50,867 bases of DNA from Bacteroidaceae bacterium. Its GTDB lineage: Bacteria > Bacteroidota > Bacteroidia > Bacteroidales > Bacteroidaceae. Below are positions 12,216-48,697 of this stretch, in pieces. The stretch covers positions 1-50,867 of the forward strand of contig JAFUVZ010000041.1 of assembly GCA_017471185.1 (NCBI GenBank), in the 5' to 3' direction. The notes beneath the pieces are model-generated. The model saw only the letters and a program-made list of their open reading frames with translations. It was not told where the DNA came from and did not search any database. The translations under genes were made by a program, and so were the position numbers. How positions within the stretch are numbered: the first letter of the stretch is position 1; each line of letters begins with the position of its first letter.

Positions 12216-14184
12216 TGAGGTGGCGCAGCTTGAACTGCAAGGCTGTACGTCCACAGACTGGAATCGGGTGAGTGTGGCGCCTGATTTCGATGCGCAGTAT
12301 GTGGTGAACGCTCATTTCTCCGGTGACATACGCCTGGGCTCACTGCATGGAGACTTTACGCTGAAAGGCGGTATCGTGAAACATGCCGGACTGAGGCATG
12401 TGACTATGCACAACGTAACGGTTGGCAATGGATGCTATATCAAGAACGTGCACAATTACATCGCCAATTATACCATTGGTGATGAGACTTTTATCGAGAA
12501 TGTAGATAGCATCGTGGTAGATGGAAAGACCCGCTTCGGCAACGGTGTGGAGGTTTCCGTGCTTAATGAGACGGGTGGGCGTGAGGTCGCTATCAGCGAC
12601 AAGCTCTCTGCACAGCTGGCTTACATCATGGCTATGTACAGACATCGTCCCGAACTGGCGGTTCGTCTGCGTGAGATAGCCGATTATTATTCAGACAAGC
12701 ATGCTTCTGAGACGGGTGACATCGCAGACCACGTGACCATCATGAATGTGGGAACTATCACCAATGTGCGCATAGGTGCTTATGCCAGAATCATTGGTGC
12801 CAATCGCCTGAACAACGGTTCTGTAAACAGCAATCAGGATGCTCCTGTACATATCGGGCACAATGTGATTTGCGACGATTTCATCATCTCTTCTGGCTCT
12901 ACCCTCGACGATGGAGCTATGCTGACTCGCTGTTTTGTAGGTCAGGCTTGCACCATGGGACACAGCTATTCGGCTTCCGACTCCCTCTTCTTCAGTAATT
13001 GCCAGGAGGAGAACGGTGAGGCTTGCGCCATCTTCGCCGGTCCGTTTACGGTGACGCACCATAAATCCACCCTGCTCATCGCAGGTATGTTCTCGTTCAT
13101 GAACGCAGGCTCTGGCTCAAACCAGAGTAACCACATGTATAAGTTGGGCCCTATCCACCAGGGCATCCTGGAGCGTGGAGCCAAGACCTCGTCTGACTCT
13201 TATATCCTCTGGCCGTCGCGCGTGGGAGCATTCTCACTGGTGATGGGCCGTCATGTGAACCATTCTGATACATCCAACCTGCCTTTCAGCTATCTGATCG
13301 AGCAGAAAGACACCACTTATCTGGTGCCGGGCGTCAACCTGCGTAGCGTAGGTACCATCCGTGATGCGCAGAAATGGCCGAAACGTGACAAACGCACGGA
13401 TCCTAATAAGCTCGACTGCATCAATTATAACCTGCTCAGTCCTTACACCATCCAGAAGATGTTCAAGGGCTGTGAGATACTGGACGGGCTCAGGCACGCT
13501 TCCGGCGAACTGTCTGATGAGTATTCCTATCATAGCGCTAAGATCCGCAACAGCTCATTGGTGAGCGGCTTCAAGTTCTATGAGACGGGCATCTGCAAGT
13601 TCCTGGGCAACTCCGTCATCAAGCGTCTGGAAGGCATTCAGTTCAAGAACGATGAGGAAATCCGCCAGCGTCTGAAGCCCGATACCGAAATAGGTCACGG
13701 CGAGTGGGTGGATATATCGGGCTTGATAGCGCCCAAGAGCGAGGTGGATAAACTGCTTGACAATATCGAGTGTGGCAAGGTGAACAAGCTGAAGGAAATC
13801 AATGATGATTTCCAGCGTATGCATGCCAACTATTATACGTATGAGTGGACTTGGGCATACGACAGGATGCTTGAGTTCTATCATCTTGACCCAGAGAAGA
13901 TAACGGCAGCAGACATCATCCATATCGTGGAGAAATGGAAGGATGCCGTGATCGGTCTCGACAAGATGGTGTATGAGGATGCCAAGAAGGAGTTCTCGCT
14001 GGCTTCCATGACTGGCTTCGGAGCTGATGGCACGAAGATAGAGAAAGAACAGGACTTCGAACAGGTACGTGGCGATTTCGAGAGCAATCCGTTCGTCATC
14101 GCTGTGCTCGACCATATCAAGGCTAAACGGGCTTTAGGCGATGAGCTGATTGAAAGAATCAGGCCATTGAGCATTGAACATTGA
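12190..14184 (+). CDS. DUF4954 family protein (left-handed beta-helix, acyl/nucleotidyl-transferase-like)
   Basis: 664 residues. The first 420 or so contain hexapeptide-type repeats (for example NVRIGAYARIIGA, HIGHNVICDDFIISSGSTL), as in left-handed beta-helix acyltransferases and sugar nucleotidyltransferases. The C-terminal 200 residues are helical. No signal peptide, so probably cytosolic. The family is conserved in Bacteroidota, with no established function that I know of. ATG 12190 lies inside hflX; the frame is also open further upstream. The last residues, LSIEH, and the TGA stop are encoded by a 7-bp repeat array (14165-14194), so the original C-terminus has probably been replaced or extended by repeat DNA. 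Confidence 0.85.
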   Translation: MIYRNLTTNEVAQLELQGCTSTDWNRVSVAPDFDAQYVVNAHFSGDIRLGSLHGDFTLKGGIVKHAGLRHVTMHNVTVGNGCYIKNVHNYIANYTIGDETFIENVDSIVVDGKTRFGNGVEVSVLNETGGREVAISDKLSAQLAYIMAMYRHRPELAVRLREIADYYSDKHASETGDIADHVTIMNVGTITNVRIGAYARIIGANRLNNGSVNSNQDAPVHIGHNVICDDFIISSGSTLDDGAMLTRCFVGQACTMGHSYSASDSLFFSNCQEENGEACAIFAGPFTVTHHKSTLLIAGMFSFMNAGSGSNQSNHMYKLGPIHQGILERGAKTSSDSYILWPSRVGAFSLVMGRHVNHSDTSNLPFSYLIEQKDTTYLVPGVNLRSVGTIRDAQKWPKRDKRTDPNKLDCINYNLLSPYTIQKMFKGCEILDGLRHASGELSDEYSYHSAKIRNSSLVSGFKFYETGICKFLGNSVIKRLEGIQFKNDEEIRQRLKPDTEIGHGEWVDISGLIAPKSEVDKLLDNIECGKVNKLKEINDDFQRMHANYYTYEWTWAYDRMLEFYHLDPEKITAADIIHIVEKWKDAVIGLDKMVYEDAKKEFSLASMTGFGADGTKIEKEQDFEQVRGDFESNPFVIAVLDHIKAKRALGDELIERIRPLSIEH

Positions 14185-14194
14185 ACATTGAATG
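14165..14194 (-). repeat. 7-bp-period array, reverse orientation, containing the DUF4954 stop codon
   Basis: Four tandem units, CATTGAG then CATTGAA three times, on the plus strand. These are the complement of the AATGTTC-type unit. The TGA at 14182-14184 that ends the gene is inside the array. Confidence 0.85.
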
Positions 14195-14232
14195 TAATAA
14201 CTTAATAATATACTAACTAAAAACTTAAATCT

Positions 14233-15876
14233 ATGGCAACAAACCCTCCGTTTCATTATCAACCCATGTTTGAGCATGGAGAAGATAAGACTGAGTATTA
14301 TCTGCTTACCAAAGACTATGTGTCTGTAAGCGAGTTTGAAGGAAAACCTATCCTTAAGATTGAGAAAGAAGGCCTCACTGCTATGGCTAACGCCGCCTTC
14401 CGCGATGTGTCTTTCATGCTGCGTCGCGCTCACAACGAGCAGGTGGCTAAGATCCTCTCTGACCCAGAGGCAAGCGACAACGACAAGTATGTGGCTCTCT
14501 CTTTCCTGCGTAATTCAGAGGTGGCTTGCAAGGGACAGCTCCCTACCTGCCAGGATACCGGTACGGCTATCATACACGGCGAGAAAGGCCAGCAGGTATG
14601 GACGGGCTATTGCGATGAGGAGGCTCTATCATTAGGCGTTTACAAGACCTATACGGAGGAGAACCTGCGCTACTCTCAGAACGCTCCGCTCAATATGTAT
14701 GACGAGGTGAACACCAAATGCAATCTGCCGGCACAGATCGACCTGGAGGCTACTGAGGGTATGGAATACCGCTTCCTCTGCGTCACTAAGGGTGGTGGCT
14801 CCGCTAACAAGACTTACCTCTATCAGGAGACCAAGGCTCGCATCCAGAACCCCGGTACGCTGATTCCTTTCCTGGTAGATAAGATGAAGAGTCTCGGCAC
14901 AGCCGCTTGTCCTCCTTATCACATCGCTTTCGTGATCGGTGGTACTTCAGCTGAGAAGAACCTGCTTACCGTGAAGCTCGCATCTACCCACTATTATGAC
15001 GAGCTGCCTACCACAGGTAATGAGTTCGGCCGTGCGTTCCGTGATGTGGAGCTGGAGAAGCAGTTGCTTGAGGAAGCTCACAACATCGGCTTGGGCGCTC
15101 AGTTCGGTGGCAAGTATATGGCACACGACGTCCGTGTCATCCGTCTGCCTCGTCACGGTGCGTCTTGTCCTATCGGCATGGGCGTTTCCTGCTCAGCGGA
15201 CCGCAATATCAAGACCAAGATTGACAAGGATGGTATCTGGATTGAGAAACTTGATGATAATCCAGGCTCACTGATTCCAGAGGCTCTGCGTCAGGCAGGC
15301 GAGGGCGATGTGGTGAAGATTGACCTCAACCAGCCTATGAGCGAGGTTTGCAAGATTCTCTCCAAGTATCCTGTAGCTACCCGCGTTTCTCTCAACGGCA
15401 CCATCATCGTGGCCCGTGACATCGCTCATGCCAAGCTGAAGGCTCGTCTGGATGCTGGCGAGGATTTGCCCGACTACTTCAAGAATCATCCTGTTCTCTA
15501 CGCTGGTCCTGCCAAGACACCTAAGGGTATGCCTTGCGGCTCTATGGGTCCTACCACAGCCAACCGCATGGATTCTTACGTAGATGAGTTCCAGGATCAC
15601 GGAGGCTCTATGGTGATGATCGCCAAGGGTAACCGTACCGATGTAGTGACAGAGGCCTGCAAGAAGCATGGCGGCTTCTATCTCGGCTCTATCGGCGGTC
15701 CTGCTGCCGTGTTGTCGCAGAACAACATCAAGAGCATCGAGTGTGTTGAGTATCCTGAACTGGGTATGGAGGCAATCTGGAAGATTGACGTGGTTGACTT
15801 CCCTGCATTCATCCTGGTTGACGACAAGGGTAATGACTTCTTCAAGCAGATCAAACCCCGTTGCGCTTGCAAATGA
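14233..15876 (+). CDS. Fumarate hydratase, class I (iron-sulfur, fused alpha and beta domains)
   Basis: 547-residue cytosolic enzyme that interconverts fumarate and malate, in the reductive branch of the citric acid cycle typical of succinate-forming Bacteroidota. The N-terminal fumarase domain holds the cluster Cys motif [15 protein letters not shown] near residue 105 and the region [20 protein letters not shown]. The C-terminal beta domain contains [39 protein letters not shown] and [12 protein letters not shown]. Length matches E. coli FumA. It starts 48 bp after the DUF4954 gene and overlaps ykvA by four bases (ATGA). Class I enzymes are oxygen-sensitive, which fits an anaerobe. Confidence 0.95.
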
Positions 15877-16253
15877 AGATTGACCTCTTGAAATACAAGG
15901 ACCATTTCTCTGAGAGTAAGTTCTGGGAGAAGTTGGGTTCTTATGCCAAGAAAGCCGGTGTCAAGGCGGTTTATGCCGCCTTGCTCGGCTATTTTGTATT
16001 AAAAAGTCCCGATGTCCCTGTAGAAGACAAGGCCAAGGTCTATGGAGCCTTAGGCTATTTCATCCTTCCCCTCGATCTGTTGCCTGATATGATTCCTGTG
16101 GTCGGTTATGCAGACGACCTCAGTGCGCTGGTCTATGCCCTCCATGCCGTTTGGAAAAACGTCACTCCCGAAATCGAGCTCCAGGCCAAAGACAAGCTCC
16201 GCGAGTGGTTTGGTGACGATATCAACCCCTCAGACTTGTTTAATGGAGAATGA
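15873..16253 (+). CDS. YkvA family protein (DUF1232)
   Basis: 126-residue small membrane-associated protein. The core motif [20 protein letters not shown] followed by GYADDLSAL is the DUF1232 signature. ATG 15873 overlaps the fumarase stop as ATGA, indicating translational coupling. The C-terminal residues LFNGE and the TGA stop coincide with the start of a 7-bp repeat array (AATGGAG, then AATGAAT giving TGA), so the end of the reading frame is provided by repeat DNA. The function of the family is not established. Confidence 0.85.
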
Positions 16254-16331
16254 ATAATGGAGAATGGAGAATTTCAATGTTCAACGTTCAATGTTCAATG
16301 CTCAATGTTCAATGTTCAATGTTCAATGTCA
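16242..16331 (+). repeat. Compound 7-bp-period array between convergent genes
   Basis: Thirteen units: four of the AATGGAG class (one variant AATGAAT holds the ykvA stop), a six-base junction AATTTC at 16270-16275, then eight of the AATGTTC class, including one AACGTTC and one AATGCTC. The array fills the gap between ykvA and the convergent lipoprotein gene almost exactly. Confidence 0.9.
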
Positions 16332-16333
16332 TG

Positions 16334-16981
16334 TCACGTCATTTCTCCTGAATCTTTTAGGAATTCTCTTGCCGGCTTCTCCTCTTGAGCCTGCCTGATC
16401 ATCTCCCTCACAACCTGGTCAATCTCATCATTCAAGTCATACCTTGCGATGACTGTCTTAACCTCGGTGTCAATCAGGAAAAACTCACTCAGCAGCCTAA
16501 GCCTGAGATTCCTGTCTAAGGCATGATACTTGTGCTCCACCTTATATCCGATAAAGTGCTTGTATTCCTGCTCCATCTGGTTCACCTCCCTCGCCAGTCG
16601 TCTTTGTTCACGGATAGCCTCACGTTTCAAGTCCACATTCCTCTGCAGTTCCTCCCGAGCCTCGAAGAACTTCTTCCTCTCATCAGCCGTAACCCCATCC
16701 TCAAACGTATCCATTGTCAGTTGGCTGCTTTTGATGTTCAGATCATAAGTCTGTATGTTCAGGCTCACCGTATAAAGTCCCAGCATCAGTCCGTAATACT
16801 CAGGCGAGTCATAAGGGGCAAACGCGCTGTCCACCTTGATTTTCACAGGGTCATAGCTATACGAGTAAGCCAGTGATTGCTGCACAGCCTTCCCTACCAG
16901 GCTGTTTATCCTGAAGGTCGGCATCCTGCCGCACGAGCTTGCAGCCAGCAGCATCAAGGCGATATATAGCAGTCTTCTCAT
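16334..16981 (-). CDS. Predicted lipoprotein of unknown function
   Basis: 215 residues, with signal MRRLLYIALMLLAASSC; the lipobox gives Cys17. The middle (residues 98-140) is highly charged and probably forms a coiled coil (RKKFFEAREELQRNVDLKRE). No enzymatic motif is visible, and I do not recognise the family. A well-formed promoter lies 22 bp upstream. Its stop codon sits three bases from the repeat array at 16242-16331. It is transcribed alone, convergent with the fumarase-ykvA unit. Confidence 0.65.
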   Translation of the reverse strand: MRRLLYIALMLLAASSCGRMPTFRINSLVGKAVQQSLAYSYSYDPVKIKVDSAFAPYDSPEYYGLMLGLYTVSLNIQTYDLNIKSSQLTMDTFEDGVTADERKKFFEAREELQRNVDLKREAIREQRRLAREVNQMEQEYKHFIGYKVEHKYHALDRNLRLRLLSEFFLIDTEVKTVIARYDLNDEIDQVVREMIRQAQEEKPAREFLKDSGEMT

Positions 16982-17003
16982 GAGATTTATACTTCTTTGG
17001 GTA

Positions 17004-17034
17004 CAAAGTTACGGAAAGTCGAGTGCAGAACAAA
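17004..17034 (-). promoter_or_regulatory. Promoter for the minus-strand lipoprotein gene
   Basis: On the minus strand, TTTG (plus 17031-17034), a 19-bp spacer and TAACTTTG (plus 17004-17011) match the consensus. It lies between the lipoprotein gene and palindromic element copy 2. Confidence 0.75.
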
Positions 17035-17040
17035 ATAAGT

Positions 17041-17280
17041 TTACTTATTTTTTATGCCGAGACGTTGTAACTTATCTAAAGTTACGATTTCAAGTTTCGC
17101 AAGCCAGTATATACGGTCTGAAAGGCCAGTAAGCTCCCAGCGCAGGGCAACGCCCTGGGTAAATGTAGTTCGCAGCCTACGCCCTGTAAGGGCGAACCTA
17201 ACCATATCCTTGTCCCCAGGGCGATGCCCTGGGCTATTAGCTTTCTGCCCCTTCGGGGCGCTATTCAATAGTATATTCAT
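17041..17280 (-). other. Small ORF spanning palindromic element copy 2
   Basis: 79 codons beginning MNILLNSAPKGQKANSPGHR, the same opening as the 53-codon frame in copy 1. It runs through the element and out the other side. A consensus-like minus-strand promoter at 17402-17433 would transcribe it. Coding capacity may be a by-product of the element's sequence, so I do not call it a gene. Confidence 0.25.
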
Positions 17281-17307
17281 TCACTTGCGAAAATTTAGTT
17301 ACGATTT
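17080..17307 (-). mobile_element. Palindromic MITE-like element, copy 2, with 11-bp flanking duplication
   Basis: The element (17091-17296) is bounded by imperfect inverted repeats (AAGTTTCGCAAG at 17092-17103; CTTGCGAAAATT at 17284-17295). It contains the same chain of GC palindromes as copy 1, in opposite orientation and about 40 bp shorter. Perfect direct repeats AGTTACGATTT at 17080-17090 and 17297-17307 lie immediately outside, as expected for a target-site duplication. Confidence 0.85.
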
Positions 17308-17401
17308 TAAGAATAGTACCCATCAAAAATAATATGTTTTTGTTATTTACTTGCCACAGACTACTTCGGGCTGCAGCTCCCGCTCAATCATGATTGCGCT
17401 G

Positions 17402-17433
17402 CAAAGTTACGAAATATGTTTTAATAGGCCAAA
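17402..17433 (-). promoter_or_regulatory. Orphan minus-strand promoter
   Basis: TTTG (plus 17430-17433), a 20-bp spacer and TAACTTTG (plus 17402-17409) on the minus strand form a good promoter. Just downstream is the 12-bp palindrome CAATCATGATTG (plus 17387-17398). No ordinary gene follows; transcription would enter palindromic element copy 2 and its small ORF. Confidence 0.5.
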
Positions 17434-17470
17434 CATTATAATAAAATATTTATCAAAATACATAGTTTTT

Positions 17471-17559
17471 ATTCCAAACTCCCGCCCGGGTGAATTACTT
17501 CAAGTAATCGGGGCGTTTAGTTGAAGTAATCGGGGCAATTACTTGAAGTAATTCCAAAC
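17471..17559. repeat. Cluster of TTACTT(C/G)AAGTAA dyads flanked by a 9-bp direct repeat
   Basis: Three related units of about 22 bp (17492-17514, 17515-17536, 17537-17555) carry ATTACTTCAAGTAATCGGGGC or its near inverse. The cluster is flanked by ATTCCAAAC at 17471-17479 and 17551-17559. A related motif (TTACTTCAGGTAATTAATCG) appears at 50241-50260. Confidence 0.65.
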
Positions 17560-17573
17560 GGTGTCTCTTTGTT

Positions 17574-17777
17574 GACTCAACACTCTACACTCGACATTTC
17601 TCAATTTGGGAATTTATATTCAGGAATGGTGGAACTGACTTTATATTTATATACTATATATATTATTTATAATATATATAGTATATAAATATAAAACTAA
17701 CCTGGCACCGGTCAGGTCCTCTTTATATGTGAAATCAAAAAAACCAAATGTCGAGTGTTGAGTGTTGAGTGTTGAGT
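17574..17777. repeat. Nested inverted-repeat structure upstream of dnaN
   Basis: Outer arms: 17574-17599 and 17746-17777 are inverted copies (ACTCAACACTC...CTCGACATTT); the right arm has one extra 7-bp unit, GAGTGTT. Inner arms: a perfect 27-bp AT-only palindrome at 17640-17666 and 17669-17695 with a 2-bp centre. I see no coding sequence between 17300 and 17889. Confidence 0.85.
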
Positions 17778-17842
17778 AAAGGCAATGTTGACTATTGCAT
17801 AACTTTTTTCTACCTATTCTTCCTTAATTCATTTATTTTTCA

Positions 17843-17850
17843 TAAATTTG
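17843..17850 (+). promoter_or_regulatory. Candidate -7 box for dnaN
   Basis: TAAATTTG fits TAnnTTTG and lies 40 bp before the dnaN start. No clear -33 TTTG is present at 19-21 bp. Confidence 0.5.
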
Positions 17851-17889
17851 CATGATAAAATGTAGAACTTAAAAAAACGGAAAAATATT

Positions 17890-19014: not shown

Positions 19015-19017
19015 AAG

Positions 19018-19791: not shown

Positions 19792-19799
19792 GACAAGGC

Positions 19800-21510: not shown

Positions 21511-23232
21511 ATGAAGATATTTGCATATAAAATGATGCTGACATTGTTCATCTTCTGTGTACAATGTTCTATGTCCAATCTGGCCTATGGCCAGGGGAAA
21601 TGGGCCGACAAGGCCAGACAGGCTGTGTTCTCTGTCGTTACCTATGGTGCTGATGGCAAGATGCTGGGCACGGGCAACGGTTTCTTCGTGAGCGAGGATG
21701 GTGTGGCGCTTTCAGACTATGCCTTGTTCAAGGGGGCCGTGCGTGCGGAAATCGTCAATACTGACGGCAAACGCCTTCAGGTGCAGGAAATCATGGGTGC
21801 CAACGAGATGTATGACGTGCTGAAGTTCAAGGTGGCTTTGAACGGGCAGAAGGCTGCGGCTCTGACGGTTGCGCCCAATGCGCCAACCACTGGAGCGACC
21901 ATCTATCTGCTGCCTTATTCTACCCAGAAGAATACGGCTCTCACACAGGGAAAGGTGAAAGAGGTGTCTCGCGTTTCCGGCACATATCAGTATTATACCT
22001 TAGACTTGCCGCTGCAAGACAAGATGGTGAGCTGTCCACTGATGGATGCCAATGGCCAGGTGTTCGCTTTGGCACAGCAGAATTCTGACGATACCGATAA
22101 ATCAACCTGTTACGCGATAGATGCCCGCTATGCGATGGCGCAGGAAATCAACGCGTTGTCATTGAACGACGGTTCTCTCTCCGGCATAGGTATCAAGAAG
22201 GCTCTGCCTGACATCGAGGAGCAGGCTCTGGTGACGCTCTATATGGCTTCCACCAGTACCAGCAAGGAGGGTTACGCCATGCTGCTCGATGATTTCGTGG
22301 CGAAGTTCCCCAACAGCTCTGACGGTTATATTCGGAGGGCTAACAATACCTTAGGCATATCGTTAGACGAGGCTTCGCTGGCAAAGGCTGAGGCTGACAT
22401 CGATAAGGCGCTGGAGGTGGCTGAAGACAAGGCTGAGGCACATTACGACCGTGCTTCACTGATTTATAACTATCAGTTGACGAATCCTGAGAACGTCTAT
22501 AAGGACTGGACATACGACAAGGCTCTCAGCGAAGTGCGTGAGGCCTTAGCAGGCAACAGTTTGCCGGCATACAGTCAGCTGGAGGCTGATATCCTCTTCG
22601 CTATGCAGCGTTATGCTGAAGCTTATGAGGCCATCGAGAAGGTGAATGAATCTCCGTTGGCTTCAGCAGCCACCTGGTATAGTGCCGCTCATTGCAAGGA
22701 GATGATGCAGGCTCCTGCCGATGAGATACTGGCGTTGATGGACAAATGTGTGGGAACCTTCACCCCTCCTTATACGGAGGCTGCCGCTCCTTATCTGCTG
22801 GAGCGTGCGCGTATGTATGCTGACGCAGAGAAGTATCGCCCTGCGCTGCAGGATTATGAGGAATATTACAAGGCTGTGAACGGCAAGGTGAATGACCAGT
22901 TCTTCTATCTGCGTGGTCAGTGCGCCATGCATGCGAAAGCTTTCCAGCGTGCGTTGGATGACTTTACGGAAGCTGTGGAGCTGAATCCTGACGAGCTGAC
23001 TTATCGTGCCGAACTGGCTGTGGTGAATATGCGTGTGGGGCGTAATGAGGAAGCCGTCAGGGTGCTCGATGAGGCGATAGCCAAGGATGCTGACTATGCT
23101 GAATTATATCGCCTGAAAGGGCTCGCCCTGCTGCAGCAGAAGAAGAACAAGAATGCCCGCGCTGCTTTCAACAAGGCGAAGGAGCTGGGTGATCCTCAGG
23201 TTGATGCCCTGATTGAGAAATACTTCAATTAA
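21511..23232 (+). CDS. Exported protein with degenerate trypsin-like domain and TPR repeats
   Basis: 573 residues with a signal peptide ending near AYGQ. Residues 35-205 have the HtrA/trypsin fold pattern (GTGNGFFVSEDGVALSDYAL, then MVSCPLMDANGQVFAL), but the histidine expected in a TNxHV context is replaced by SDYALF and the GNSGGPL serine motif by SCPLMDANG. The domain is therefore probably a non-catalytic binding module. Residues 240-573 are TPR repeats (for example RALDDFTEAVELNPDELTYR). Two degenerate 7-bp units, AATGTTC and TATGTCC, encode part of the signal peptide (VQCSMSN). Fourth gene of the dnaN run, 13 bp after recN. Likely periplasmic scaffold; function unknown. Confidence 0.7.
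   Translation: MKIFAYKMMLTLFIFCVQCSMSNLAYGQGKWADKARQAVFSVVTYGADGKMLGTGNGFFVSEDGVALSDYALFKGAVRAEIVNTDGKRLQVQEIMGANEMYDVLKFKVALNGQKAAALTVAPNAPTTGATIYLLPYSTQKNTALTQGKVKEVSRVSGTYQYYTLDLPLQDKMVSCPLMDANGQVFALAQQNSDDTDKSTCYAIDARYAMAQEINALSLNDGSLSGIGIKKALPDIEEQALVTLYMASTSTSKEGYAMLLDDFVAKFPNSSDGYIRRANNTLGISLDEASLAKAEADIDKALEVAEDKAEAHYDRASLIYNYQLTNPENVYKDWTYDKALSEVREALAGNSLPAYSQLEADILFAMQRYAEAYEAIEKVNESPLASAATWYSAAHCKEMMQAPADEILALMDKCVGTFTPPYTEAAAPYLLERARMYADAEKYRPALQDYEEYYKAVNGKVNDQFFYLRGQCAMHAKAFQRALDDFTEAVELNPDELTYRAELAVVNMRVGRNEEAVRVLDEAIAKDADYAELYRLKGLALLQQKKNKNARAAFNKAKELGDPQVDALIEKYFN
21563..21583 (+). repeat. Degenerate 7-bp-period units in a signal-peptide region
   Basis: AATGTTC, TATGTCC and AATCTGG in tandem encode VQCSMSN, close to the VQCSMF cycle read from intact arrays elsewhere. 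Only one unit is perfect, so this could be chance. Confidence 0.35.
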
Positions 23233-23284
23233 TGAAGAATGAACTTCGTTAATGAATAATGAAGAATTTCAATGTTCAACGTTA
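23231..23284 (+). repeat. Compound 7-bp-period array at the end of the TPR gene
   Basis: Units AATGAAG, AATGAAC, then TTCGTT, AATGAAT, AATGAAG, the six-base junction AATTTC (23265-23270), AATGTTC and AACGTTA. The array begins within the TAA stop of the TPR gene. Two further AATGTTC units lie at 23361-23374. The block 23285-23357 between them holds no gene that I can support. Confidence 0.8.
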
Positions 23285-23375
23285 TGCTTCGCATCAATTC
23301 TGTCGCGACTCGGCATAGCTGATGCAAGCATCCGCTCTGCTCTCATTGCTCCAGAAAGTCAATGTTCAATGTTCC

Positions 23376-23520: not shown

Positions 23521-23586
23521 CTCAACGTTCAATGTTCAACGTTCAACGTTCAATGTTCAATGTTTAACGTTCAATGTTCAATGTTC
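23521..23586 (-). repeat. 7-bp-period array containing the folC stop codon
   Basis: Nine tandem units of AACGTTC and AATGTTC (one AATGTTT) on the plus strand. Read on the minus strand, where folC lies, it supplies the folC C-terminal residues NIEH and its TGA stop (plus 23571-23573). Confidence 0.9.
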
Positions 23587-24809
23587 AAAAGGTCTGCGAC
23601 GATAAAGTTACTGCCTCCTACGAAGATAAAGTCTTCCGGGAGGCTTTCTTTCATGGCGGCATCCAAGGCAGATTTCACGTCAGGATAAGCCTTGCCATGC
23701 AGACCAGCCTCTGTAGCTAACTCATAAAGCTTATCGGCAGGCAAGGCACGGTTCACGCTGGCCTGCGTGAAGTAATATTTCGCCTCGCGAGGCAACAAAG
23801 ACAATACCCCACTGATGTCCTTGTCGTTCACCATGCCTATTATTATATGAAGCTGACGGCACTTCTGCTGCATCAGTTGTTGCGCCACATACTGTATGCC
23901 CCCCACATTGTGTCCCGTGTCGCACACCAGGGTAGGGTTGTCTTGCAGCTTCTGCCACCTGCCCATTAGACCCGTAAGTTCCACCACATGGGCGAATCCT
24001 TCGCGTACCGTCTCCTCGTCAATATGATAGCCAGCCTCTTTCAGCAAAGGCAACGCTGTGAACAAAGTGCGTTTGTTCTTCTCCTGATAGATGCCTTTCA
24101 GCTCGAAGTCCACCCCAGGATAATCCTCACGGTCGTTCTCTTCGGCAAGGAAGATGGGAGCTTTCACTTCCTCCGCTTTGGCCATGAATACAGGCTTTGT
24201 CTCAGGAGTAGTCTCTCCAATCACCACAGGGATGCCGGGCTTGATGATGCCGGCTTTCTCAGAGGCTATCTTCGCCAGGGTATCGCCTAAGAACTGCACG
24301 TGGTCGAAGCTGATGTTAGTGATGATGCACAGGTCGGGACTGATGATGTTCGTGCAGTCGAGCCTGCCACCTAAGCCTACCTCTATCACAGCCACATCCA
24401 CCTGTTCGTCGGCGAAATAGCGGAAAGCCATCGCAGTAGCCAACTCGAAGAACGAAGGACGCAGAGGCTCGAAGAAACCACGTTCCCTCTCCACGAAATC
24501 CATCACATACTCTTGCGAGATAGGTTTTCCGTTGATGCGGATACGCTCACGGAAATCCACCAGATGAGGCGATGTGTAAAGTCCCGTCTTGTAGCCGGCG
24601 CTCTGCAAGACAGCAGCCAGCGTATGACTGACGGAGCCCTTGCCGTTGGTGCCTGCTACATGAATCGTGCGGAACTGGCGGTGAGGATGACCGAAATGCT
24701 CGTCAAGAGTCTGCGTATTGTCAAGCCCCTCTTTGTAAGCTGCTCCACCAATGCGCTGGAACATGGGTACGCTGTTGTATAGGTAATCTAAAGTTTTCTG
24801 ATAAGTCAT
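23571..24809 (-). CDS. folC: Bifunctional dihydrofolate/folylpolyglutamate synthase
   Basis: 412-residue cytosolic Mur-ligase-family enzyme that adds glutamate to dihydropteroate and to folates. The P-loop AGTNGKGSVSHTLAAVLQSAG is near residue 52. Further family segments are TSPHLVDFRERIRING, EVGLGGRLDCTN, SFDHVQFLGDT with the metal-binding region, and the C-terminal domain start CDTGHNVGG. Length is normal. The last residues, NIEH, and the stop codon are encoded by the adjacent 7-bp array, so the native C-terminus has been altered, apparently without loss of the enzyme core. It converges with the TPR gene and is divergent from aldA. Confidence 0.95.
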   Translation of the reverse strand: MTYQKTLDYLYNSVPMFQRIGGAAYKEGLDNTQTLDEHFGHPHRQFRTIHVAGTNGKGSVSHTLAAVLQSAGYKTGLYTSPHLVDFRERIRINGKPISQEYVMDFVERERGFFEPLRPSFFELATAMAFRYFADEQVDVAVIEVGLGGRLDCTNIISPDLCIITNISFDHVQFLGDTLAKIASEKAGIIKPGIPVVIGETTPETKPVFMAKAEEVKAPIFLAEENDREDYPGVDFELKGIYQEKNKRTLFTALPLLKEAGYHIDEETVREGFAHVVELTGLMGRWQKLQDNPTLVCDTGHNVGGIQYVAQQLMQQKCRQLHIIIGMVNDKDISGVLSLLPREAKYYFTQASVNRALPADKLYELATEAGLHGKAYPDVKSALDAAMKESLPEDFIFVGGSNFIVADLLNIEH

Positions 24810-41098: not shown

Positions 41099-41154
41099 TA
41101 CAGGCTTGCATTCTGTGGCAGAACTAAAAGCATTTTACCTTTTGCAATTGTAAT

Positions 41155-41190: not shown

Positions 41191-41254
41191 CATCGTTTAA
41201 CCAATTAAAATCTTTACTTATGAAAAGAAAAACAAAGGGCCTCACGGCTTTATC

Positions 41255-42292: not shown

Positions 42293-42320
42293 TTTTATTT
42301 CCTTAATCTTCGATTAACGG

Positions 42321-42355
42321 TTGCAAAGATATATATATTTCATTATTTTTGCAAA
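42321..42355. promoter_or_regulatory. Interlocked divergent promoters of pheS and the DUF4286-ruvC run
   Basis: Plus strand: TTGC (42321-42324), 19 bp, TATTTTTG (42344-42351). Minus strand: TTTG (plus 42352-42355), 20 bp, TATCTTTG (plus 42324-42331). Each -33 box abuts or overlaps the other promoter's -7 box, so the two are on opposite faces of the same 35 bp and should exclude each other. Confidence 0.65.
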
Positions 42356-42371
42356 ATAAAATCGCCAGATT

Positions 42372-42695
42372 ATGATAGTTTATAATACAACTTACCATGT
42401 TGAGGAGGCTGATGAGCAGCTTTTTCTGAACTGGATTCATGAATATCTGATACCTGAGGTGCTGAAGGAGGGGACCCTGATGAACCCGAGGCTATTGCGT
42501 GTGCTTGGGTATCATCGGGATGAAGATGAAGAAGGGCATGGTGCGTCATACGCCTTGCAGCTGGAGGCTGAAGACACTGCGGCTCTGCATCATTGGTATC
42601 GCTCTCAAGGTGTGAAGCTGAATAAAGAGTTACTGTTGGTGTTCCGCCAGCGTGTGTTGGGATTTTCTACGATGATGGAGGTGGTGGAGTCATGA
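42372..42695 (+). CDS. DUF4286 family protein
   Basis: 107-residue soluble protein ([40 protein letters not shown]). The ferredoxin-like pattern is typical of DUF4286, a small Bacteroidota family of unknown role commonly found upstream of ruvC. The stop overlaps the ruvC start as ATGA, so the two are translationally coupled. Confidence 0.87.
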
Positions 42696-43264
42696 CGGAA
42701 CCTGTGGAAGAAAAGATTATCCTGGGCATTGACCCAGGTACTACCGTGATGGGTTATGGGGTGCTGAAGGTGATGATGGGCAAGCCCTCGCTGATAGCGA
42801 TGGGAGTGATTGACCTGCATAAATATGCCAATCATTATCTCAAGCTGGCGAAGATTCATGAGCGGGTATTGAGTATCATTGAGAGTTATCTGCCTGATGA
42901 ATTGGCGATTGAGGCCCCGTTCTTTGGCAAGAACGTGCAGAGTATGCTGAAATTAGGCAGGGCACAAGGTGTGGCGATGGCTGTGGCATTGAGTCGTGAC
43001 ATACCCATTACTGAGTATGCTCCTTTGAAAATCAAGATGGCGATAACGGGCAATGGCTCTGCTTCAAAGGAGCAAGTGGCTGGTATGTTGCAAAGATTGC
43101 TTCATATCGCAGAGGATGATATGCCTAAGTTCCTGGATGCTACAGATGCCTTGGGTGCTGCTTACTGCCATTTTATGCAGATGGGCACACCAAAGGTGGA
43201 GAAGAGTTATAAGAGCTGGAAGGATTTCGTTACGAAGAATCCGGATAAAGTGAAGAAAGGATAA
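42692..43264 (+). CDS. ruvC: Holliday junction resolvase RuvC
   Basis: 190-residue nuclease that cuts Holliday junctions with RuvAB. Catalytic acids: Asp14 in [12 protein letters not shown], Glu in [11 protein letters not shown], and the Asp pair in [13 protein letters not shown]. Length is normal with a short basic C-terminal tail. The start overlaps the preceding gene (ATGA), and pulA begins five bases after its stop. Confidence 0.96.
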
Positions 43265-43269
43265 AGATT

Positions 43270-45291
43270 ATGCGTTTATTATTGACCTTTATGATGATAT
43301 CGATGATGGTGGCAGGATGCCATCAAGAGCAAAGGGTGTTTTATGATTCACCAGAACAATATCCTGTTAGGCAGGGAAGTATGAGTGAGATGGAATATAC
43401 CCCAGCACATTCCAGTTTCCATTTGTGGAGCCCTAATGCTGATGAGGTACGACTGATGCTGTATGATGAGGCTGAGGGGGGGCACGCTTATGAGACGCAT
43501 CATATGGAACTGGGCAATGATGGCACCTGGCATGTGAAGGTTAACAAAGACTTGATGGGTAAGTTCTATACATTCAACGTGAAGATAAATGAAGAATGGC
43601 TCGGCGATACACCTGGATTGTTCGTCAAGGCAGTGGGCGTAAACGGACATCGTGGGGCTATTATAGATATGGAGCAAACGAATCCTGAAGGGTGGGAGAG
43701 TGACCGCAAGCCTGGTTTCCAACGCTTGGCTGATGCGGTGGTCTATGAGATGCATCATCGTGATTTCTCCATTGACGCAAGCTCAGGTATCAGCAACAAG
43801 GGTAAGTTCCTGGCTCTGACTGAAGTTGGCACACAATCGCCAGAGGGATTGGCAACAGGAATCAACCATCTGCAGGAGTTGGGCGTTACGCATGTGCATC
43901 TTTTGCCTTCTTACGACTATGCCTCCATTGACGAGCATGCTTTCAAGGACAACCGCTATAACTGGGGTTATGACCCTCAGAACTACAATGTGCCTGATGG
44001 TACTTATGCTACTGACGCCACTAAACCCGATGTGCGCATCAGGGAGTTCAAGCAGATGGTGCTGGCTTTGCATAGGGCTGGCATCAGAGTAGTGATGGAT
44101 GTGGTTTATAATCACACCTATAATGCGCCTAACAGTGCGTTTGAGAAAACCGTTCCCGGCTATTTCTACCGCATGAAGAGCGACGGATCTTTTGCCGATG
44201 GCTCCGGGTGTGGCAATGAAACGGCCAGTAACCGTCCGATGATGCGTAAGTTCATGGTGGAGAGCGTGCTCTATTGGATGCGCGAGTACCATATAGACGG
44301 ATTCCGTTTCGACCTGATGGGAATACATGATATCACTACGATGAACGAAATCAGGCAGGAAGCGCAGAAACTTGACCCTCAAGTTTTGATATATGGCGAA
44401 GGATGGGCTGCATCCTCTCCGCAATATGCTTCAGACTCTCTGGCTATGAAGGCCAATATCGCCAAGCTGCCAGGCATCGCTGCTTTCAGCGACGAACTGA
44501 GAGACGGATTGCGTGGTCCTTGGGATGATGACAAGAAAGGTGCCTTTCTGGCTGGTTTCCCTGGACATGAGGAGAGTGTTAAGTTTGGCATCGTGGGGGC
44601 TATCCAGCATTCTCAGGTGCAGATGGATAGCGTGAACTATAGTAAGAAAGCTTGGGCGATGGAGCCTACACAGATGATGAGTTATGTGAGTTGTCATGAC
44701 GATATGTGTCTGGTTGACAGGCTTCGTACTTCAATCCCTGATCTCAAGCCTGGAGAATTGGAGAAGCTGGATATGCTGGCTCAGACGGCTGTGTTAACCT
44801 CGCAAGGCATTCCGTTCATCTTTGCCGGAGAGGAAGTGATGCGCGACAAGAAATTTGTGCACAACAGCTATCAGAGTCCTGATAGCGTGAATGCTATCAA
44901 TTGGCATAATAAGGCGCGGCATCAGGGCGTGTTCAACTATTACAAAGGACTGATAGCTATGCGTAAGCATCATCCAGCCTTCCGCTTGGGGAGCGCTGAT
45001 TTGGTGCGCAAGTATCTGGAATTCATTCCTGTGGATGAAAAAGGCCTGGTGGCTTTCAGATTGAAAGACCATGCAGGCAATGATGTGTGGAACAACATCA
45101 TCGTGATATTGAATGCCAGAAGGGAATTTGCGAAAGTGAATGTGCCGGAAGGAAGATATATGGCAGTTGTGAAAGACGGTCTGGTGTATGAGGGAGGTCT
45201 GGGCATCTTGTATGGACCCACGCTGACGGTGGCACCAGAATCTGCCTTAATCGTTTACGAAAACAAAATTGATTATATAAGTCGTGATTAA
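43270..45291 (+). CDS. pulA: Type I pullulanase, lipoprotein
   Basis: 673 residues. The lipoprotein signal ends MMVAGC. A CBM48-type N-terminal domain (HSSFHLWSPNADEVRLMLYDE split across residues 38-60) precedes the GH13 barrel. The pullulanase signature YNWGYDPQNYNVPDG, the nucleophile in GFRFDLMG, acid/base in IYGEGW and third acid in SCHDD are all present. It cleaves alpha-1,6 branches in pullulan, starch or glycogen. It overlaps the ABC gene by 8 bp. No CBM41 domain is present. Confidence 0.94.
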   Translation: MRLLLTFMMISMMVAGCHQEQRVFYDSPEQYPVRQGSMSEMEYTPAHSSFHLWSPNADEVRLMLYDEAEGGHAYETHHMELGNDGTWHVKVNKDLMGKFYTFNVKINEEWLGDTPGLFVKAVGVNGHRGAIIDMEQTNPEGWESDRKPGFQRLADAVVYEMHHRDFSIDASSGISNKGKFLALTEVGTQSPEGLATGINHLQELGVTHVHLLPSYDYASIDEHAFKDNRYNWGYDPQNYNVPDGTYATDATKPDVRIREFKQMVLALHRAGIRVVMDVVYNHTYNAPNSAFEKTVPGYFYRMKSDGSFADGSGCGNETASNRPMMRKFMVESVLYWMREYHIDGFRFDLMGIHDITTMNEIRQEAQKLDPQVLIYGEGWAASSPQYASDSLAMKANIAKLPGIAAFSDELRDGLRGPWDDDKKGAFLAGFPGHEESVKFGIVGAIQHSQVQMDSVNYSKKAWAMEPTQMMSYVSCHDDMCLVDRLRTSIPDLKPGELEKLDMLAQTAVLTSQGIPFIFAGEEVMRDKKFVHNSYQSPDSVNAINWHNKARHQGVFNYYKGLIAMRKHHPAFRLGSADLVRKYLEFIPVDEKGLVAFRLKDHAGNDVWNNIIVILNARREFAKVNVPEGRYMAVVKDGLVYEGGLGILYGPTLTVAPESALIVYENKIDYISRD

Positions 45292-46741
45292 TCTTCAATA
45301 TTCCATAAAGTTAGATGATGCCGTGCCTCGTTTGCCAGAGGCAAGGATGGCAGAACCCGTAACGCTGGAAATTGCGAAAGGGGAGCAGATTGCCATTGTG
45401 GGAGAGAACGGTGCCGGCAAGAGTATGCTGGTGGATATGCTCATGAGTAAATGTCCTTTGCGTCAGGGTACTATCGAGTATGACTTCTCGCCTTCTCCTT
45501 GGAAGGAAATCTATAAGAACATCAAGTATATCAGTTTCCGGGATACCTTCGGCAGCATTGATACCAATTATTATTATCAGCAACGCTGGAATTCCACAGA
45601 ACTGGATGAGGTGCCTTTGGTGAAAGACCTTCTTTTAATGGAGAATGGAGAATTGAGAATGGAGAATGGTCAGTTGTCTGTTTTCAATTGCCAAGAGATG
45701 CTGGACAAGCCCATTATCCTGCTTAGCAGTGGAGAAATGCGTAAGTTCCAACTGACGAAGATGCTGATGGCTGAACCCCGAATCCTGATTCTCGACAATC
45801 CCTATATCGGTCTTGATGCCGCTACCCGCATTCAATTGTCGGAACTGCTGAAGCAGCTGATTGAGAAAGGTGTGCAGCTTATCTTGGTAATGAGCCGTAT
45901 GGACAGCGTTCCAGATTTCATCACTCATGCTGTGGTGGTAAAAGATATGAAGGTGGCCGGTAAGATGACGTTGGGCGAATATCGCCAATGGTTTTCTACC
46001 GTTGACCGTTTTGAAGCCGTAGAGAAACCAACCGCAGGGAATAATTGTCAATGTTCAATGTTCAATGTTCATTCAGAAGAAATAGTCCGCCTCAATCGAG
46101 TGAGCATCCGATATGGAGAACGTACTATATTGAAAGATCTCGATTGGGTAGTGAGGCGAGGGGAGAAATGGGCGTTGAGTGGACAGAATGGCTCTGGCAA
46201 ATCTACCTTACTGAGTATCATCTGTGCAGACAATCCCCAGAGCTATGCGTGCGACGTGAGTCTGTTCGGGCGGAAGAGAGGAACTGGCGAGAGTATCTGG
46301 GACATCAAGAAACACATTGGATATGTGAGTCCAGAGATGCATCGCGCTTATCTGAAAAACCTGCCTGCTATCGATATTGTGGCAAGTGGCCTGCATGACA
46401 GCATCGGACTCTATGTACATCCGAAACCAGAACAACGGGAAACTTGCCTGCATTGGATGAAGGTGTTCGGCATCGCTCATCTGTCAGACAGACCTTTCTT
46501 GAAGATGAGTAGTGGCGAACAGCGTCTCGTGCTTTTGGCGAGGGCCTTTGTGAAAGATCCTGAACTGCTGATTCTGGATGAGCCTTTGCATGGGCTGGAT
46601 ACCTTCAACCGTCGAAAGGTAAAGCGAATCATTGATGAGTTCTGCAGTCATGAGGGCAAGACCTTGATGATGGTAACCCACTATGAGGAAGAATTGCCTT
46701 CGTGCATCGACCACAGGCTGCAGCTGAAGAAAAATGTTTAA
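45284..46741 (+). CDS. Duplicated ABC ATPase (ModF/PhrA-like) with two 7-bp-repeat insertions
   Basis: 485 residues with two nucleotide-binding domains and no membrane part. NBD1: Walker A GENGAGKS (40-47), signature LLSSGEMRKFQ, Walker B RILILDNP. NBD2: Walker A GQNGSGKS, signature KMSSGEQRLVLLARAF, Walker B LLILDEPLHGLD. It begins with GTG, overlapping pulA by 8 bp. Residues 118-136 (MENGELRMENGQLSVFNCQ) are encoded by an eight-unit array between the Q-loop region and the signature of NBD1. Residues 254-262 (NCQCSMFNV) are encoded by a four-unit array in the linker between domains. Role is unknown; possible ATPase partner or translation-type ABC protein. Confidence 0.82.
   Translation: MINLQYSIKLDDAVPRLPEARMAEPVTLEIAKGEQIAIVGENGAGKSMLVDMLMSKCPLRQGTIEYDFSPSPWKEIYKNIKYISFRDTFGSIDTNYYYQQRWNSTELDEVPLVKDLLLMENGELRMENGQLSVFNCQEMLDKPIILLSSGEMRKFQLTKMLMAEPRILILDNPYIGLDAATRIQLSELLKQLIEKGVQLILVMSRMDSVPDFITHAVVVKDMKVAGKMTLGEYRQWFSTVDRFEAVEKPTAGNNCQCSMFNVHSEEIVRLNRVSIRYGERTILKDLDWVVRRGEKWALSGQNGSGKSTLLSIICADNPQSYACDVSLFGRKRGTGESIWDIKKHIGYVSPEMHRAYLKNLPAIDIVASGLHDSIGLYVHPKPEQRETCLHWMKVFGIAHLSDRPFLKMSSGEQRLVLLARAFVKDPELLILDEPLHGLDTFNRRKVKRIIDEFCSHEGKTLMMVTHYEEELPSCIDHRLQLKKNV
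45637..45692 (+). repeat. Eight-unit 7-bp array inside the ABC ATPase gene
   Basis: AATGGAG, AATGGAG, AATTGAG, AATGGAG, the hybrid AATGGTC, then AGTTGTC, TGTTTTC and AATTGCC (degenerate). It is read without a stop. Confidence 0.9.
46043..46070 (+). repeat. Four-unit 7-bp array inside the ABC ATPase gene
   Basis: AATTGTC followed by AATGTTC three times, in the linker between the two nucleotide-binding domains. Confidence 0.9.
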
Positions 46742-46756
46742 GGAGCGAGAAGTGAG

Positions 46757-48697
46757 ATGGGCTATGGAGATGTAAATAATAATGGTAAGCTGACAGCGTC
46801 CAAATGCCAATTGTCAATTGTCAAATGTCAATTGTCAATTTTCTTCGCTTGGATGGTTGTCTTTGCCTTGCAGAAACCTCTGTTCATGCTGTGGTACAGA
46901 TATTTGTATGCCGATGCCTCAGCTGGCGATTGGTTCTCTGTGGTGTGGCACGGCTTGAAGCTTGACGCTTCGATGGCTGGCTACCTGACCATTATTCCTG
47001 GCTTGCTGCTCATTACTTCTTTATGGACAAAGCATAGATGGGTGAATATCGCTATGAACACCTATTTTATCATTGTGAGCGCGATAGTAGCTGTCATCTT
47101 TGTGGCGGATATGGGGCTTTATGAATTCTGGGGCTTCCGGCTGGACGCCACCCCCATCTTCTATTTGATATCTTCTCCTAAAGATGCTTTCGCTAGTGTC
47201 AGCATGCTATACATCCTCTTGGGTTTGTTGGCAATGGCTCTTGTCTTCTTCCTCATTTATGGGTTGTTCCGTAAAATCCTCAAGTATAATGATTTTGCAC
47301 AAAAAGAAGATGATAGGCATCATTGTCAATTGTCAATTGTCAATTGTCAATTAACAACCTCTTTCGTCTTACTCTTGTTAACAGCTTTGCTCTTTATCCC
47401 TATTCGTGGGGGCTTCTCAGTTTCTACGATGAATACGGGCAAAGTGTTCTTCAGCACAGATATGAGATTGAACCATGCCGCTTTGAATCCTGCTTTTAAC
47501 TTGATGGAATCTCTTTCCAAGCAAAAGGACTTCGCCCGTCAGTATCGCTTTATGGACGATGCGGAAGCGAGTGCCATCTTTGAAACAATGGTGGACAAGG
47601 GGGTAATGGAGAATGGAGAATGGAAAATGGAAAATGGTCAACGTTCAACGTTCAACGTTCTTTTCGTTATTCTGGAAAGCTTCTCCAGCAAACTGATGAC
47701 CACTTTGGGAGGAGAGCCTGGCATAGCTGTCAATATGGACAAGCTGGCACAGGAAGGCATCCTTTTTACCAACTTCTATGCCAACAGCTTCAGAACAGAC
47801 AGAGGATTGGTTTCCATCCTCAGCGGATATCCTGCACAACCTACCACCAGCTTGATGAAATACCCCCGAAAAACACAGAATCTGTCAGGCATTGCCCGCA
47901 GTTTGAAGCAAGCCGGATATATCACCACCTACTATTATGGAGGTGATGCCGACTTTACCAACATGCGTTCCTATCTGATGGCACAAGGATTTGACCAAAT
48001 CATCAGCGATGTTGATTTCCCTGTCAGTGAGCGACTCAGCAAATGGGGCGTTCACGATGAAGTGGTCTTCAATCGTTTGCTTGAAGACCTGAAAGAGGAA
48101 GCCCGGCTGTCAACGGATAACGGTCAACGTTCAACGTTCAAAGTCCTTCAGACCTCCAGCAGCCATGAACCCTTTGATGTGCCCTACCATCGCTTGGAAA
48201 ACGAGCGACTCAACGCTTTTGCCTATACCGATGAGTGTCTGGGCAACTTCATAGAAGCCTTCAAGCAGTTGCCGCAATGGGAAAACACCCTGGTGGTGCT
48301 CGTTCCCGACCATTTGGGCGCCTATCCTGAAAACATCAGCAACTTCATCCCTGAACGTTATCAGATACCATTGATTATGATAGGTGGCGTGGTCAAAGAG
48401 CCCATGCGGATAGACGTGATTGGCTCTCAACAAGACATTGCCGCTACTCTGTTGGCGCAATTGGGCTTGCCGCATGATGAGTTCACATTCAGCAAAGATA
48501 TGCTCAATCCTGACAACCCTCATTTCGCATTCTTCACTGTCCCGGACGCTTTCGGAATGGTGACCGAAGAGAATACCCTCATATTCGACAATCAGGCTGG
48601 TAAGACGGTGTGGGACGAAGGTGAACAAAAAGGAGCTAACCTTCGTAAAGGGCAGGCTTACTTGCAGAAACTATATGATGACATTGCTAAAAGATAG
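46757..48697 (+). CDS. LtaS-like membrane sulfatase-family transferase with four 7-bp-repeat insertions
   Basis: 646 residues: N-terminal membrane domain (about five helices, residues 30-215) and a periplasmic sulfatase-fold domain. Glu307 in LFVILESFSS, the nucleophile Thr347 in NSFRTDRGLVS, and the metal ligands in VPDHLGAYP and SSHEPFD are intact. Relatives transfer phosphoglycerol or phosphoethanolamine to glycans or lipids. Four arrays fall at residues 16-29 (before helix 1), 189-200 (before helix 5), 283-302 (next to the catalytic strand) and 452-461 (next to SSHEPFD). The core is preserved, so the protein should be functional. ATG 46757 has AGGAG upstream. Next gene starts three bases after the stop. 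Confidence 0.88.
   Translation: MGYGDVNNNGKLTASKCQLSIVKCQLSIFFAWMVVFALQKPLFMLWYRYLYADASAGDWFSVVWHGLKLDASMAGYLTIIPGLLLITSLWTKHRWVNIAMNTYFIIVSAIVAVIFVADMGLYEFWGFRLDATPIFYLISSPKDAFASVSMLYILLGLLAMALVFFLIYGLFRKILKYNDFAQKEDDRHHCQLSIVNCQLTTSFVLLLLTALLFIPIRGGFSVSTMNTGKVFFSTDMRLNHAALNPAFNLMESLSKQKDFARQYRFMDDAEASAIFETMVDKGVMENGEWKMENGQRSTFNVLFVILESFSSKLMTTLGGEPGIAVNMDKLAQEGILFTNFYANSFRTDRGLVSILSGYPAQPTTSLMKYPRKTQNLSGIARSLKQAGYITTYYYGGDADFTNMRSYLMAQGFDQIISDVDFPVSERLSKWGVHDEVVFNRLLEDLKEEARLSTDNGQRSTFKVLQTSSSHEPFDVPYHRLENERLNAFAYTDECLGNFIEAFKQLPQWENTLVVLVPDHLGAYPENISNFIPERYQIPLIMIGGVVKEPMRIDVIGSQQDIAATLLAQLGLPHDEFTFSKDMLNPDNPHFAFFTVPDAFGMVTEENTLIFDNQAGKTVWDEGEQKGANLRKGQAYLQKLYDDIAKR
46802..46843 (+). repeat. 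Six-unit 7-bp array, sulfatase N-terminus
   Basis: AAATGCC, AATTGTC, AATTGTC, AAATGTC, AATTGTC and AATTTTC encode KCQLSIVKCQLSIF just before the first helix. Confidence 0.9.
47321..47355 (+). repeat. Five-unit 7-bp array, sulfatase membrane domain
   Basis: CATTGTC, then AATTGTC three times and AATTAAC, encode HCQLSIVNCQLT before a transmembrane helix. Confidence 0.9.
47605..47660 (+). repeat. Eight-unit 7-bp array beside the sulfatase active-site strand
   Basis: AATGGAG, AATGGAG, AATGGAA, AATGGAA, hybrid AATGGTC, then AACGTTC three times. It encodes MENGEWKMENGQRSTFNV, directly followed by LFVILES. Confidence 0.92.
48112..48139 (+). repeat. Four-unit 7-bp array in the sulfatase domain
   Basis: AACGGAT, AACGGTC, AACGTTC and AACGTTC encode TDNGQRSTF, just before KVLQTSSSHEP. 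Confidence 0.85.

Follow-up and report, generated by a model that had tools for sequence, protein, structure and literature searches.

Arrays of 7-bp period in a Bacteroides genome as probable arms of a dispersed palindromic repeat

Introduction

Repetitive extragenic palindromic (REP) sequences and bacterial interspersed mosaic elements (BIMEs) are dispersed palindromes that differ in sequence between species and have associated transposases, the REP-associated tyrosine transposases (RAYTs). Other dispersed bacterial repeats are described here as they appear in the available parts of the cited reports. Rickettsia palindromic elements are dispersed palindromes of ~150 bp that lie mostly in frame inside unrelated genes (PMC10969869). 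Heptamer repeats of one fixed word, TAACTGA, occur in Beggiatoaceae, cyanobacteria and five Bacteroidetes; in the Beggiatoaceae genome they are found mostly just upstream of starts, and the repeat alone has no predicted structure (PMC4679880). The GGGNATC heptamer repeats of Xanthomonas and Nostoc form G-quadruplexes (PMC4692102). BrickBuilt, a miniature inverted-repeat transposable element (MITE) of Porphyromonas gingivalis, has a 23-bp unit and 19 copies in one strain, is always intergenic and was found by its authors in P. gingivalis only (PMC4596501). Here we analyze tandem arrays of 7-bp units (heptads) in a 50,867-nucleotide stretch, hereafter the window, from a Bacteroidaceae bacterium (contig JAFUVZ010000041.1 of assembly GCA_017471185.1). 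The arrays, to which an earlier note had drawn attention, probably represent arms, either whole, partial or expanded, of a palindromic repeat dispersed in Bacteroides and neighboring genera.

This repeat resembles the Rickettsia palindromic elements in its dispersed palindromes and in-frame copies within genes. It differs in that the arms are tandem heptads with words that differ between species, that solo arms and long expansions are abundant, and that many copies lie between operon genes. With the TAACTGA repeats it shares 7-bp tandem arrays that have stops on one strand and none on the other and whose placement is limited by stops, but the Bacteroides arrays have many related words, two arms and a fixed arm order. 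The GGGNATC repeats are likewise dispersed heptamer arrays that vary in length and sequence among close relatives; unlike the present arrays they form G-quadruplexes, and the available text mentions inverted pairs as examples only. BrickBuilt also has a Bacteroidales host and consists of tandem repeats in an inverted-repeat element with predicted stem-loops, whereas its 23-bp unit, intergenic-only placement and single-species range set it apart. REP/BIME sequences with RAYTs are dispersed palindromes too (cf. PMC3733652); the Bacteroides repeat has heptad arms, in-gene copies and many carriers without a match to the Y1 transposase family. No description of heptad-armed palindromes in Bacteroides was found in the literature searched, outside which most subscription journals fell.

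The window is contig C73 of genome G000, a draft of 2.76 Mb in 85 contigs that is ~80% complete. We assign the genome to Bacteroides in the GTDB sense because the frr-rsgA region of the congeneric G366 matches a Bacteroides finegoldii record at 99% identity across 1,091 bp. G000 was sampled as 40 stretches of 20 kb (16 contigs, taken from contig starts and not centered on arrays) plus the window, giving 850,867 bp; the sample is mildly biased in that almost every sampled contig was previously known to carry an array. Genes in the sample were called with a home-made hexamer caller (684 genes, 87% coding).

Results

The palindromes of G365, G011, G008, G017 and G001 are ~100 bp long and have heptads as arms. 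In a complete copy, tandem heptads (TTGANNN) make up the left arm and are followed by a tip and then by a right arm complementary to the left. Complete copies carry terminal inverted repeats, as MITEs do. Some copies occupy the space from the stop codon of one gene to the start of the next, and others are embedded in genes in frame. Many G365 copies have the common ends AAGTTGAGA...TCTCAACTT, and a tip resembling GCTGCGC...TGCATAG, in either direction, occurs together with common ends and an inner TGGAGAR heptad in several copies across G365, G011, G008 and G017. The inner heptad of G365 copies is often TGGAGAR, which is the GGAG-type unit of the window read in another phase; some G365 copies are single arms. 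The tip CCATGCGG adjoins heptad arms in G000 (L040, L055), twice in G012, and in G365; the G000 sample holds 16 of these motifs against 6 in a reversed control, the others not being beside arms. In these relatives, a complete element has ~3–6 tandem heptads in its left arm (TTGANNN or variants such as AATGAAG and TGGAGAA, the latter being AATGGAG in another phase), a tip of ~20–50 bp, and a reverse-complement right arm of NNNTCAA heptads, a form that covers AATGTTC, AATTGTC and AACGTTC. With GGAG-type units as left arm and GTTC-type units as right arm, the order of units means left before right, on both strands.

Copies fill or almost fill the stop-to-start gap in frr-rsgA of B. finegoldii and in pyrI-flavin reductase and DUF3332-GH2 of Parabacteroides distasonis. 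Elsewhere in the PLSDB records, the repeat occurs in the spacer that separates nusA from infB and, in frame, within a SpoIID/LytB coding sequence of B. finegoldii. The seven PLSDB regions examined had fold energies of −34 to −64 kcal/mol. Palindromes in frame in unrelated coding sequences, the mark of the Rickettsia type of element, were found in a MurF/Alr-type open reading frame (ORF) of G365 and in the SpoIID/LytB sequence. Plasmid carriage was rejected: 13 "plasmid" records matched, but the seven examined resemble fragments of chromosome, with core genes (frr, nusA, infB, pyrBI) in those that are annotated. One 96-bp query gave no match in a phage collection. Across the phylum, 75 of 296 genomes matched a TTGA-arm/TCAA-arm hairpin pattern, many of them once, near the level of the reversed-pattern control, and several 3–6 times; we claim clear enrichment solely for G000 (23), G603 (17) and G660 (14). 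G603 and G660 belong to other families of the phylum, and their 17 and 14 matches compare with 0 in controls.

Spread by a Y1 tyrosine transposase, as in a REP/RAYT system, would suit a repeat that is palindromic, dispersed and different in sequence between species. However, a search limited to Y1 (PF01797) gave matches in 8 of 18 genomes and none in the other 10, which include the repeat-bearing G365, G012, G008, G001, G366, G393 and G137, and such arrays stood at just three of 14 Y1 loci, one of them in the array-rich G397. A mobilizer that is absent from many carriers and rarely beside arrays is unsupported; we regard this explanation as very improbable, and for present-day spread as largely refuted.

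The gap between frr and rsgA allowed one site to be compared across species, with both ends recovered in 25 of 26 loci. Heptad hairpins occupy the gap in 11 of the 25 genomes, with about seven words and fold z-scores of −4.7 to −11.1: GTTGAGA in G366; AATGAAG in G020, G015, G014 and G002; GTTGAAA in G017; ATTGAGA in G006 and G005; TTGACAA in G021; AATGGGG/AATGGAG in G023; and ATTGAAC in G022. Self-match at period 7 was 0.42 to 0.61 in these hairpins, compared with 0.23 to 0.32 at other shifts. In eight genomes (G011, G008, G001, G018, G016, G012, G007 and G009) the gap is just 2–18 bp, and the G008 spacer GTTGAGAACTCTCCATTC resembles a remnant; six (G013, G004, G010, G003, G019 and G047) hold other inserts. 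When left arms were paired with right arms across seven hairpins, the own right arm was the best partner in six, and the left arm of G015 preferred the right arm of G014, which has the same word. The near-empty gaps resemble each other too little to display a target-site duplication.

At the MurF/Alr-type gene, insert lengths range from 27 to 120 bp and are all divisible by 3 (11/11 genomes). The copy there is full in G365 and G011, degenerate in G017 and collapsed in G008; G006 has a hairpin made of AATGAAG units and G001 a left-arm-like stretch, and heptads were not recognized in G013, G005, G010, G015 and G016. Two histories could each account for the differences seen at the two sites: a change of word in both arms of old elements at once, or repeated arrival of related elements at the same gaps. 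A search for related loci returned a single close relative (RUG12887, 71% identity); five others were distant. Between G000 and G012 (72–81% DNA identity), orthologous in-gene sites hold arrays of other words and several further sites are empty in G012. In G000, a heptad hairpin separates two convergent genes at L078 8577–8658; the hairpin of G012 at this place is a different one that resembles a terminator. The comparison of G000 with G419 yielded no informative array site.

The earlier note had proposed that GGAG-type units always precede GTTC-type units. In the compound arrays, 14 unit changes run from GGAG-type (R) to GTTC-type (Y) and four from Y to R, each of the four being one trailing unit. 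A pattern of two GGAG-type units followed by two GTTC-type units within 14 bp, searched in 301 whole genomes, gave 24 overlapping matches in G000, four in G137 and two in G243, the last two representing two other genera; the reverse order gave none in any of the 301. The 13 matches listed for G000, of 24, occupy seven places. At distances up to 70 bp, the TTGA-type arm preceded the TCAA-type arm by 6 to 0 in 98 broad loci (the window and the 20-kb stretches, with known arrays in a few of those from G137) and by 26 to 0 in 66 targeted loci, some of which (L168–L176) were chosen because close opposite pairs had been seen there; among the listed places that led to L168–L176, the pairs inspected had the same polarity. 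At 151–400 bp the broad loci gave 2 to 0. Hairpin potential was rejected as the cause of this order. R and Y units pair about equally in either order when worked by hand, so folding alone fails to explain it, whereas the order is explained by common descent as two arms. Perfect self-templated arms are also disfavored for the R-to-Y compounds, since R and Y units retain mismatch.

The arrays are real by several measures, and those listed for the window were found again. In the window we counted 16 self-match runs of period 7, whereas dinucleotide shuffling (20 shuffles) predicts 0.3; multiples of 7 aside, no other period had more than three runs. A unit-chain scan gave 84 arrays in the 850,867 bp sampled from G000 and 5 in the control (sequence reversed without complementing; both strands, unmerged). 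Long runs in the sample were most numerous at period 7 (40), then at multiples of 7 (25, 21 and 15), with period 22 (8) next, in counts that carry no shuffle control. With one unit length in tandem beyond chance, the arrays belong to the heptanucleotide class of long simple sequence repeats. The four unit types named earlier exist, but four is too few, as AATGAAT, AATGAAG, AACGGTC, AATCTTC and others also occur. The AATTTC and AATGGTC junctions recurred at further loci. The pattern (AAYNNTC)×3 had 343 overlapping matches in the whole of G000 and none in its reversed control, and was also high in a few species of the same genus (G012, 405; G397, 515; G419, 387; control 0–5). It was present at least once in 125 of 158 species, an unclean count in that the reversed control is equally high in, e.g., G389, G384, G390 and G402. 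The exact AATGTTC triple occurred in 22 of 301 genomes of the family and in 8 of 30 genera. In G137, from another genus, arrays of further heptamers (AATTAAG, AAGGGTG, AATTACG and GTTAACA) were seen in L148–L167; two of these, at L152 11442 and 11632, form an inverted pair ~190 bp apart, as if the shared feature were the period of 7 and not the word.

Most G000 arrays are solo. An opposite arm lies within 150 bp of only 6 of the 84 (mismatched-flank control 4.0%). Fourteen compound arrays can be taken for a pair of arms with no tip between them, L055 615 being counted also among the six paired ones; three more compounds, split apart by the scan, are outside the 14. Strong folds were found at L062 160–285 (z −10.2), L055 610–760 (z −6.2) and L047 15785–15930 (z −4.7). 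Because most arrays are solo, slippage must do much of the work, and slippage might be the whole explanation: the replication machinery would favor 7-bp duplications at short seeds like AATNNNNAAT, arrays would arise separately, and selection against stops and promoter damage would set their orientation. A mixed array of 40 units and 280 bp in G000 fits this account, as do the outer ends of perfect arrays, which are frequently at AAT (23 of 46 starts, 24 of 64 ends). One survey had heptamers as the most frequent long simple repeats in the majority of genomes, and the contact length of the polymerase was put forward as an explanation (Mrazek et al., 2007, as reported in the available part of PMC4679880). 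Independent slippage fails to predict the 30-to-0 order, the short-range arm polarity, the common tips and ends, or complementary heptad arms in one gap of 11 genomes, and as the sole origin of the arrays we consider it possible but unlikely.

Orientation relative to genes was the other regularity of the earlier note, which had every in-gene array of the window in the stop-free direction. The in-gene arrays of the window are stop-free; the one at 46809–46843 lies at an uncertain gene 5′ end (one call starts the gene at 46853) and is not clearly inside. In the G000 sample, 15 of 17 in-gene arrays, mostly of mixed units, are sense and two are antisense (13 and 2 with a stricter 40-bp margin); the remaining arrays are 14 sense and 2 antisense at gene 5′ ends, 13 and 13 at 3′ ends, and 25 intergenic. 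If inverted where they stand, 14 of the 15 sense arrays would acquire a stop; the exception, at 45637, is likewise sense. The two antisense arrays (L047 16358 and L048 2220) are stop-free as present, a variant unit removing TGA from the used frame. At gene 3′ ends the orientation is usually the stop-bringing one: 10 of 13 sense arrays are GGAG/GAAT-type, with many units having a sense TAA or TGA, and 9 of 13 antisense arrays are GTTC-type with TGA on that strand. Stop filtering therefore suffices for orientation, and stop-free insertion as a property of the generating process is not supported, since selection would leave the same pattern. At L059 8920–8954 a gene start codon apparently lies in the last heptad of the array, and the G012 orthologue starts without an array.

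The 69 arrays that are not inside genes comprise 53 between tandem genes, 13 in convergent gaps, one in a divergent gap and two at stretch ends. Tandem gaps hold 37 arrays along the gene direction and 16 opposed, and part of this bias arises because gene ends get drawn into stop-free arrays. Divergent gaps make up 25% of intergenic bp and yet hold only that one array. This avoidance would fit repeats kept as transcript ends, operon spacers or mRNA-stability hairpins, heptad arms being one convergent route to long stems; so would the exchange of hairpins at L078, and the frr-rsgA stems that remain paired as words change. Many copies lie within coding sequences, however, the frr-rsgA gap is only 2–18 bp in 8 of 25 genomes, and 78 of the 84 G000 arrays have no opposite arm within 150 bp (compound arrays excepted), so that selection for hairpins appears an improbable origin. 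At L128 of G255, T precedes the stem and A runs follow it, opposite to the arrangement of an intrinsic terminator.

Within the window, a GTTC-type array on the minus strand (14162..14192) lies at the 3′ end of a DUF4954 gene (ORF 12133–14184), the stop codon of which is inside the array. All others are on the plus strand. A DUF1232 ORF terminates within the compound array at 16242..16329 (GGAG-type, AATTTC junction, GTTC-type). A compound GAAG/GAAT-type to GTTC-type array with small hairpins (23231..23284) is followed by a short GTTC-type run (23359..23374) and a GTTC-type array (23522..23588) that overlaps the 3′ end of a minus-strand Mur-ligase-family gene (23571–24809). An ABC ATPase gene (45284–46741) contains in frame a compound GGAG-to-GTC array (45637..45678) and a GTTC-type array (46043..46071), the latter being longer and of other units in the G012 orthologue. 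The sulfatase-family gene downstream has four arrays, which sit in poorly conserved stretches of the protein (29 relatives compared): an AATTGTC-type array at its 5′ end (46809..46843), not seen in the G012 orthologue, and in frame an AATTGTC-type array (47321..47355), where G012 has an array too, a compound GGAG/GGAA/AATGGTC/AACGTTC array (47605..47660; AATCGTC units in G012) and an AACGTTC-type array (48112..48139; AATGGTC/AATCGTC units in G012). Region 23225–23300 had an RNA fold z of −3.2 against 60 mononucleotide shuffles, and the arrays at 16242 (z −0.3) and 47605 (z −1.9) fold weakly.

Other repeats were also noticed in the window. Upstream of dnaN (17570–17779), ACTCAAC-type and GAGTGTT-type heptads form an inverted pair of opposite polarity that flanks an AT-rich palindromic stretch. 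Several GC-rich palindromes at 17120–17260 (CCCAGGGC..GCCCTGGG and GCCCCTTCGGGGC) resemble another dispersed repeat, and 22-bp-period repeats of different sequence lie at 17493–17552 and 50300–50357.

Discussion

Three observations support a defined generating process as opposed to random microsatellites: unit order is fixed in three genera, complete copies in relatives are palindromic, and one orthologous gap holds hairpins of differing words. This part of the earlier interpretation holds, while its view of stop-free insertion as part of that process does not. If the arrays are arms of a dispersed palindromic repeat, its copies would disperse by copying, and the arms would later lengthen, shorten or change word through slippage or conversion, and the many solo arrays of G000 would be the outcome; stop codons would determine which in-gene orientation survives. 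A role for slippage is suggested by the 280-bp mixed array and by the turnover of words.

Several observations weigh against descent from such a palindrome. The scarcity of opposite arms around G000 arrays is one, and good folding is found in only some compound arrays. Polarity loosens beyond 70 bp (2 to 3 in the broad loci at 71–150 bp), the window pair 17575/17749 has opposite polarity, as have two further pairs at 374 and 442 bp spacing, and the unselected short-range evidence is the 6 to 0 only, some targeted loci having been picked for pairs already seen. Arm matching beyond the word of the genome itself is weak, as the observed value was reached in 19 of 2000 permutations within genomes (38 rows, including repeats of one place). 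Neither a target duplication nor a transposase that would move the repeat was found, the transposase search having covered Y1. At frr-rsgA, the strong hairpins of G013 (L263, z −6.4) and G003 (L270, z −6.7) lack clear heptads, which looks as though palindromes were favored by the gap itself and speaks for selected hairpins. Finally, the words of G006 differ between sites (ATTGAGA at frr-rsgA, AATGAAG at MurF/Alr), and the commonest unit of a genome was its own frr-rsgA word only in G015 of the four genomes sampled, not in G014, G020 or G022.

The repeat may be, in a stronger form, a self-spreading hairpin with a changeable word. Lineages would then respell tens to hundreds of copies on both arms together, and the same gap would carry a different, well-paired word in each species. 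Such respelling would need copying or conversion machinery that acts in 7-base steps. The two words of G006 mean that one genome need not have one word and count slightly against this stronger form, which we hold to be rather unlikely.

If the arrays are indeed arms of a dispersed palindromic repeat, the finding would link two separate questions: why some bacteria have an excess of 7-bp tandem repeats, and how dispersed palindromes originate. The frr-rsgA gap, one operon gap with several words in many species, would offer a natural comparative series for catching the process. The arrays also suggest that some variable linkers, start codons and stop codons of Bacteroides genes are derived from repeats.

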